Source: Ignavibacteriota bacterium (GTDB lineage: Bacteria > Bacteroidota > Ignavibacteria > SZUA-365). From it: a stretch of 64,000 nt of DNA. The notes under the pieces were generated by a model. It saw only the letters and a program-made list of their open reading frames with translations, was not told the DNA's origin and made no database searches. The stretch lies in the NCBI GenBank assembly GCA_016218045.1, contig JACRFB010000059.1:62001-126000 (forward strand), written 5' to 3'. The position numbers and the translations under genes were made by a program. Positions within the stretch are counted from its first letter, which is position 1; the number at the start of each line of letters is the position of its first letter. Below are positions 24,011-28,145 of this stretch, one piece after another.

Positions 24011-24586
24011 TCACGGGTAGAATGTGACGGGCAGCCCGCGCGCTTCGCGCAGGCGCTCAAGATATTCCTCGCGCGGGATCTCCCGTCCGCCGAATCTCTC
24101 GAGGTGCGGCGTTGTCCATTGTGTGTCGAGCAAAATGAACCCGCGCGCCCGCAGCCGCGCGACCAAAGCGACAAGGGCCGCCTTCGAGGCGTCGCGCACA
24201 CGTGTAAACATTGACTCGCCGAAAAACGCCCCGCCGATGGCCACACCGTACAGCCCTCCGGCCAGCGCCCCGTCCGTCCACGCCTCCACCGAGTGTGCAA
24301 AACCGCGTGTGTGCAGGTTGCGATAAACGACTTCGATCTCGCGCGTGATCCACGTTTCCTCGCGCGCGGCGCACGCGCGAATCACCTCGTCGAAGGCGGT
24401 GTTCACGCGTATGTCGAAGCGGCCGCTTCGCAGGATCCGCGCAAGCGTCTTAGGCACATGGAAAGTGTCGAGGTCCAGTATGCCGCGCGGGTCGGGGCTG
24501 TAGAGCGATATCGAACCGTCTTCCTCTCCCATCGGAAAGATGCCCTCGCTGTACCACGCAAGAAGTGTCGCGGCGGGAATGCGCAC
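24011..24586 (-). CDS. aat: Leucyl/phenylalanyl-tRNA--protein transferase
   Basis: A 191-aa transferase that adds Leu or Phe to N-terminal Lys/Arg, marking proteins for ClpS/ClpAP (N-end rule). Motifs: LAWYSEGIFPMGEEDGSISLYSPDPRGIL, WITREIEVVYRNLHTRGFAHSVEAW, LAGGLYGVAIGGAFFGESMF and ILLDTQWTTPHLERFGG. The length is somewhat shorter than E. coli Aat (234 aa). It lies 9 bases after the XerD-like gene on the same strand, so the two are likely cotranscribed. Confidence 0.95.
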   Translation of the reverse strand: MRIPAATLLAWYSEGIFPMGEEDGSISLYSPDPRGILDLDTFHVPKTLARILRSGRFDIRVNTAFDEVIRACAAREETWITREIEVVYRNLHTRGFAHSVEAWTDGALAGGLYGVAIGGAFFGESMFTRVRDASKAALVALVARLRARGFILLDTQWTTPHLERFGGREIPREEYLERLREARGLPVTFYP

Positions 24587-24595
24587 GGTCGCTCC

Positions 24596-25480
24596 TCAGA
24601 AGGGAAAATCTTCGGTGCGGATCTTCTCGAGCAGACGGATGTGGTTCTTGATCGAGGTGACACCGAGGGCGCGCTTCACCGCGTCGTGCGTTTCGCCGTG
24701 GATCAGCATCTGCAGGGCGAAGGTGTTGCGAAGCATCATCGGAGTCACGTTGGGCACGCCGGCGTCGCGGCCCACGCGCTTCACGATGGCGTCCACCGCC
24801 TGCTGCGACAGGGGTTCGCCGTCGCGATGCAGGAAAAGCGGTTCCGCCCTGCGTCTGCGCGACAGCACCGCGGTGCCGCGTCGCTTCAGGTACTGACGCA
24901 GCGCCGCCTGCGTGCGGGTGCTCAACTGCGCAAAACGCACGGTCTTGCGGCGCTGGCCGCGGATAAAAAGGCGGCCGACACGCGGCGTCAGGTGCAGATC
25001 GCCGATGGTGAGGCCGCAGATCTCGCCGCTGCGCAGGCCCGCGTGCAGAAGAAGCAGGATGATCGCCGTCTCCATGGGACGCGCGGACTGTTCCGATTGA
25101 CGGACGAGCAGCAGCGCGTCCTTTCGCGCGAGCACGGTCGGGATCTGCGGCTCCGACGGCAGGCCAAGCACGGTCACCACGGGATTTCCCACGGCCCAGC
25201 CGCTCTCGATCGAGAACTCGAAGAATTGCCGCAGCGAGGTGATGCGCCGGTTCACCGAGGCCAGCGACGACTTGCGCGTCAGGAGAAAACCGCGAAAGTC
25301 GATCACGTCGCCGCGTGTGATGTCGGCGATCGTGAATCCGTCACCGGCGGTGTTCACGTACCACTTGAAGAATTGCTGGATGTCGTTCGCGTACGAACGC
25401 ACCGTGTTCGGATTCTTCCCTTTCTTCTCCAGGTGTCGCTGGAAAAGCTGTATGGTTTTCTGTATGTCCGCGGCCGTCAT
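24596..25480 (-). CDS. Tyrosine-recombinase-fold protein (XerC/D-like) lacking the catalytic tyrosine
   Basis: A 294-aa protein, the usual XerC/D length; ATG 25480 is preferred over an upstream frame extension that is purely basic. The N-terminal SAM-like core-binding domain reads IQLFQRHLEKKGKNPNTVRSY. The catalytic domain keeps Arg I (HAGLRSGEICGL), the beta-hairpin Lys (QRRKTVRF) and Arg II (MMLRNTFALQML). The His of HxLRH is Met, LGH is LGV, and the expected IYTH segment is IRLL. No tyrosine exists in the last 80 or so residues, and no frameshift nearby restores one. It should bind DNA but not cleave it. The true XerC/XerD are presumably elsewhere. Confidence 0.88.
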   Translation of the reverse strand: MTAADIQKTIQLFQRHLEKKGKNPNTVRSYANDIQQFFKWYVNTAGDGFTIADITRGDVIDFRGFLLTRKSSLASVNRRITSLRQFFEFSIESGWAVGNPVVTVLGLPSEPQIPTVLARKDALLLVRQSEQSARPMETAIILLLLHAGLRSGEICGLTIGDLHLTPRVGRLFIRGQRRKTVRFAQLSTRTQAALRQYLKRRGTAVLSRRRRAEPLFLHRDGEPLSQQAVDAIVKRVGRDAGVPNVTPMMLRNTFALQMLIHGETHDAVKRALGVTSIKNHIRLLEKIRTEDFPF

Positions 25481-25610
25481 TGCGATCCGTGTTGCAATCG
25501 TTCCAAGTCTCAAAATGTACTTGGCGCGGAACCGAAAACAAAATCGACGGCTGCGGCGAAATCGCGCCCGCCGCGGCACACGACCGACACACGTGCAATG
25601 CCTGCACCGC

Positions 25611-25641
25611 TTTTACGCTCACGGAGAATTTCGTACTTTTC
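25611..25641 (+). promoter_or_regulatory. Candidate gyrA promoter
   Basis: TTTT (25611-25614), 19 bases, then TACTTTTC (25634-25641), followed 38 bases later by the gyrA ATG. The string TCGTACTTTTC recurs before the epimerase gene at 31824, which supports it as a real -7 region. Confidence 0.5.
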
Positions 25642-25679
25642 CATGATTTGAAACTTTCACCCCCGATTCGCGGATCAGA

Positions 25680-28145
<2,466 letters not shown>

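Follow-up and report, generated by a model that had tools for sequence, protein, structure and literature searches.

An Xer paralog lacking the catalytic tyrosine is conserved beside aat in one bacterial order and is probably a DNA-binding protein

The window analyzed here is a stretch of 64,000 nucleotides from an Ignavibacteriota bacterium (assembly GCA_016218045.1, contig JACRFB010000059.1). It contains a gene, termed xlp, whose frame runs intact from ATG to TGA and encodes a 294-residue Xer-like protein (XLP). The flanking frames are those that we take to be aat (leucyl/phenylalanyl-tRNA-protein transferase) and gyrA, and the coordinates are collected in Table 1. In all 15 genomes in which xlp was found, aat lies 3′ of it on the same strand, mostly with a gap within about 25 bases, and the two genes are probably co-transcribed. 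In the one genome in which gyrA is located elsewhere (G004), the xlp-aat pair is still together. The neighbors of xlp that were compared appear by eye to be housekeeping-type genes, and no transposition gene was recognized among them. Beyond the window, there is an integrase-like frame with one internal TAG (G000:C59:166130-166660, L008).

Table 1. Features of the xlp locus; positions are those of the window, and the xlp coordinates include the stop codon.
Feature	Position	Strand	Evidence or remark
xlp (Xer-like protein, XLP)	24596..25480	minus	ORF and translation, Pfam, AlphaFold2, 15 orthologs
XLP domains			core-binding, residues ~1-110; degenerate catalytic, residues ~111-294
codon of L283 (nucleophilic Tyr position)	24632..24634	minus	L-INS-i alignment, 60 rows; model helix 278-290
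aat (presumed)	24011..24586	minus	directly downstream of xlp; neighbor in 15/15 genomes
gyrA (presumed)	25680..28145	plus	divergent from xlp in 14/15 genomes
xlp-gyrA intergenic region	25481..25679	none	promoter-like block upstream of xlp

XLP matches the Pfam Phage_integrase domain (E = 1.9e-20) together with N-terminal SAM-like domains, and only integrase families are returned in a PHROGs search, whereas the PADLOC defence models give no match. The XerD and XerC models are matched at E-values of 6.7e-39 and 2.2e-38, respectively, but the scores fall far under the curated NCBIfam cut-offs (133.9 bits against 329.6 for XerD and 132.3 bits against 335.15 for XerC). An AlphaFold2 model, for which 55 sequences were aligned, has a mean pLDDT of 94.5 and a pTM of 0.83; its least confident parts include the hairpin loop and the last residues. 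The model places XLP in the tyrosine-recombinase superfamily, with a predicted core-binding domain followed by a catalytic-type domain. Among solved structures, the closest in fold are XerA (Z = 22.3) and XerH (Z = 21.6), followed by other tyrosine recombinases. For some of these matches the rmsd is high (XerA, 15.2), which probably reflects a different angle between the two domains. A separate observation from the structural data is that chain 14 of PDB 9i5v, a 401-residue chain named RaiA, opens with a complete Xer-like sequence whose motifs are intact, suggestive of either a fusion of Xer and RaiA or an annotation artefact.

The active site was examined in a 60-row L-INS-i (MAFFT) alignment of the 15 XLP orthologs and 45 other Xer proteins, 30 of them from the order of the window's genome and 15 from its class. 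The complete Arg-Lys-His-Arg-His-Tyr set is present in 45/45 of the other Xer rows. In the XLP orthologs, the position of His II is occupied by S, T or M (M248 in the window protein), that of the second His (His/Trp, His III) by V, I, M or T (V274), and that of the nucleophilic Tyr by L, V or F (L283), in each case in 15/15 sequences; the window protein contains no Tyr beyond residue 197. None of the 15 deviates at Arg I (R150), the catalytic Glu (E153) or Arg II (R251). These results agree with an earlier note on this DNA, which had described an intact, full-length frame that keeps both arginines and has lost both histidines and the Tyr. Orthologs carrying the Tyr, which that note had treated as decisive against its own reading, were looked for, and 0/15 carry it.

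The claim that the hairpin Lys remains is, however, not supported. The XLP hairpin is longer than that of XerC and XerD, and the register of this residue is therefore uncertain. In the HMMER alignment to XerA (5hxy), inspected by eye, the catalytic Lys lies opposite R177, which is invariant in the 15 orthologs, whereas MAFFT instead places a neighboring K/R position there (9 K and 6 R among the 15); K179 of the window protein varies among the orthologs. Judged from these alignments, the Lys is most likely replaced by the invariant R177, and under neither alignment does it appear to be strictly kept. Two histidines of the window protein, H146 (25043-25045) and H163 (24992-24994, both minus strand), are invariant in 15/15 orthologs and occur in fewer than 10% of active Xers. 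Binding of a ligand or a metal is a possible role for them. The retention of Arg I, Glu and Arg II, in addition to the invariant Cys155, Thr253, His146 and His163, could suggest that XLP is still an active recombinase or nuclease with another nucleophile. This seems very improbable, as both His, the Tyr and most likely the Lys were lost together, and Cys at position 155 and Thr at position 253 also occur in some active Xers.

XLP is present in 15 of the 16 genomes of the order. The remaining genome (G012, 74% complete) has an assembly without XLP, but its absence says nothing because gyrA and aat are also missing from that assembly. With at most 6 candidates scored per genome and E-values up to 1e-50, XLP is found in 15/391 genomes of the class sample, all of them from the same order, and in 1/395 genomes of the phylum sample, which is the window's own. 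The ortholog profile separates the family clearly, with E-values of 1.4e-143 or better in the 15 genomes and of 2.9e-37 or worse for the next Xer proteins. Among the named ortholog records, all of them metagenome assemblies, 8 carry the label Bacteroidetes/Bacteroidota, 3 Ignavibacteria and 1 Chlorobiota, a tally that leaves out a 13th locus, which is actinobacterial and a short match. In the tree, the XLP sequences form one clade with a support of 100/100, whose stem measures 2.18 changes per site; the parent Xer is not placed by this tree, owing to the long stem and a program warning that long branches meet. For the viral Xer rows, 44 of 80 loci were taken in, the 36 omitted being mostly partial or near-duplicate, and 2 of the 44 were dropped for stops or X.

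A mobile-element origin was considered and rejected, since tblastn returns only distant integrases from phages (137/50,697 records) and from plasmids (653/72,556 records), with 26-31% identity to XLP among the 16 matches listed. Scanning viral contigs with the XLP ortholog alignment gives no relative. XLP is a vertically inherited chromosomal gene. In a genome of the same class without XLP (G035), a tyrosine-recombinase-like ORF lies directly downstream of gyrA (L122, 4258-5145, plus strand); its N-terminus is by eye typical of integrases, and its position is probably a coincidence.

The loss of the active site could indicate a decaying pseudogene, or a sequencing or assembly error, but this explanation retains almost no probability: the frame is complete and free of internal stops in all 15 orthologs, the synteny is conserved, and dN/dS is far below 1. 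The ratios, which are rough because many dS values exceed 1, are 0.021-0.105 for XLP (8 computable of 9 pairs), 0.073-0.145 for XerC (9/9 pairs) and 0.044-0.125 for XerD (5 computable of 7 pairs). In the least saturated pair (G013-G014), dN/dS is 0.041 for XLP (dS 0.75) and 0.102 for XerC (dS 0.72). The mean pairwise identities in the 14 shared genomes are 0.62 for XLP, 0.62 for XerC and 0.63 for XerD. The purifying selection on XLP is comparable to that on XerC and XerD of the same genomes, in keeping with the earlier view that the gene is not decaying.

The distribution of this constraint differs between the three proteins. Conservation of the C-terminal tail is 0.41 in XLP against 0.86 in XerC and 0.89 in XerD, whereas XLP has the higher values in the core-binding domain (0.61 against 0.57 and 0.48), helix D (0.77 against 0.64 and 0.59) and the J helix (0.75 against 0.60 and 0.68); the linker and hairpin show no gain. 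Residues R28, N32, N77, Q85, Q226, Q227 and D230 in the region of helices D and J are XLP-specific and invariant or nearly invariant, and in recombinases these helices contact DNA. Conservation in XLP has shifted out of the active-site tail and into the helices presumed to contact DNA. XLP of the window is also basic (46 K+R against 25 D+E), which, together with the recombinase clamp fold, would suit a general nucleoid-associated or bending protein of little sequence specificity. We consider this role quite improbable, because the presumed recognition helices carry invariant side chains specific to the family, which suggests a single conserved target.

The window's genome also contains the true Xer pair for which a search had been proposed. 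XerD (contig 52) scores above its NCBIfam cut-off and XerC (contig 24) reaches 330.3 bits (cut-off 335.15), and both have full active sites. XerC-type proteins are present in 16/16 genomes of the order, and XerD-type proteins were taken from 14, with G012 and G013 left out; one locus of the Xer retrieval (L116) contains no Xer ORF. FtsK-gamma is found in 14/16 genomes, which rules out its absence as the reason for a third Xer. Sites resembling dif with at most 2 mismatches are present in 8/16 genomes (14 matches, against 3 for the reversed pattern), and most of those that are extended are close to ACTTCCGATAATATATATTATGTAAAGT. The near-textbook dif of the window's genome (G000:C52:115389-115412, L215) is on the same contig as XerD. 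Another genome (G002) has two dif-like sites with different flanks (C1:741-760, L214, and C10:153861-153880, L220), one of which is possibly in a mobile element.

In domain order, full-length fold, Arg I, Glu and Arg II, XLP resembles XerC, XerD and XerA. It differs from them in the absence of His II, His III and Tyr, in a hairpin Lys that is most likely Arg, in a truncated tail, and in forming a separate clade alongside two true Xer genes. Since the Xer fold is kept and the standard system is in place (intact XerC and XerD, with FtsK-gamma and dif-like sites in many of the genomes), XLP could act as an accessory non-catalytic subunit or an inhibitor of the XerC/XerD-dif synapse, which would modulate dimer resolution through binding to dif or to XerC/D. 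This possibility is unlikely, as the tail is truncated and poorly conserved, the presumed DNA-contact residues are unlike those of XerC and XerD, XLP of the window's genome is on a different contig from xerC, xerD and dif, and the other class genomes sampled manage without XLP.

Upstream of xlp, a promoter-like block (TTG and a T-run, a spacer, and an ATATTT-like element) is present in most orthologs and is weak in the window, where a sigma-70 consensus search gives no match. No conserved inverted repeat and no operator were found in the xlp-gyrA interval across the orthologs. The pattern ATATTTCNNGATTNA occurs 17 times in 16 genomes, and its reversed form gives 0 matches. Six of the 17 lie upstream of xlp, and among the other 11 no recurring gene was seen and most look intragenic. 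We read the pattern as a promoter element rather than a regulon. That no DNA target was found in these searches speaks against the DNA-binding reading set out below.

The findings favor, with reasonable though far from full confidence, a catalytically dead Xer paralog that is maintained by selection as a DNA-binding protein, which agrees with the earlier proposal that an Xer protein may have evolved into an architectural or regulatory DNA binder. We consider a sequence-specific DNA binder of Xer descent, probably with a regulatory function, the best explanation. In a tyrosine recombinase, the two domains close around the DNA and the Tyr then makes the cut. The clamp and the phosphate-binding arginines are preserved in XLP and the residues for cutting are gone, so that the protein most likely remains on the DNA as a regulator, and it would grip one specific DNA sequence in the manner of the recombinase C-clamp without cutting. 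The target is probably other than dif, as the residues of the presumed DNA-contact helices are family-specific and invariant. Xer proteins lend their C-terminal tail to the neighboring protomer, and XLP, whose tail is truncated and poorly conserved, probably stays out of the normal cyclic tetramer. Bound XLP may act as a repressor or in an architectural regulatory role, with the xlp-aat unit itself and the divergent promoter of gyrA as possible targets. In its strongest form, this proposal would have an order-specific Xer paralog without cleavage become a chromosomal regulator of transcription or topology that uses its own conserved recognition sequence to control xlp-aat and the gyrA promoter. 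We regard this form as tentative and rather unlikely; if true, an enzyme of the Xer type would have come to serve as a core regulator of a gene for DNA supercoiling. Since gyrA is not adjacent to xlp in G004, no gyrA-specific role need be invoked.

Inactive DNA binders with a recombinase fold are known, among them MrpR of phage SPbeta (PMC10516654) and TnsF of Tn6022 (PMC10293859). In the retrievable part of the open-access literature, with subscription papers mostly outside it, no paper was recognized on the XLP family or on a Tyr-less chromosomal Xer paralog. The class of function therefore has precedents, and within the literature searched the chromosomal, order-wide conservation appears to be new. 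As a candidate of this class, XLP belongs neither to a phage nor to a transposon and is retained in every genome of the order in which the region is present. The 15 sequences form a natural set in which evolution may have split DNA binding from cutting, with intact XerC and XerD controls alongside.

According to PMC10516654 and its Table 3, MrpR (YopR), the master repressor of the Bacillus subtilis prophage SPbeta, has a recombinase fold without recombination and acts as a DNA-binding repressor, and like XLP it has lost most of the catalytic residues. MrpR keeps the Lys and Tyr and lacks Arg I, the opposite pattern to XLP with its two arginines and no Tyr, which indicates that the two losses are probably independent. 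In the fold comparison, MrpR (8a0a) matches the XLP model with Z = 12.8 and 11% identity; it belongs to a prophage, whereas XLP is encoded on the chromosome across a whole order. SroF of phage phi3T (PDB 9rd5 and 9rgl) likewise has a recombinase-like fold (Z = 15.8 against XLP); no paper on it was found in the portion of the open-access literature retrieved. It is a repressor by PDB title and, unlike XLP, a phage protein; the likeness lies in the fold and that title. TnsF of Tn6022, as described in PMC10293859, uses an inactivated tyrosine-recombinase domain for DNA site choice. It is transposon-borne, partners with TniQ, and combines zinc fingers and two core-binding domains with a catalytic domain that is only partial, whereas the 294 residues of XLP comprise one core-binding domain and one catalytic-type domain.
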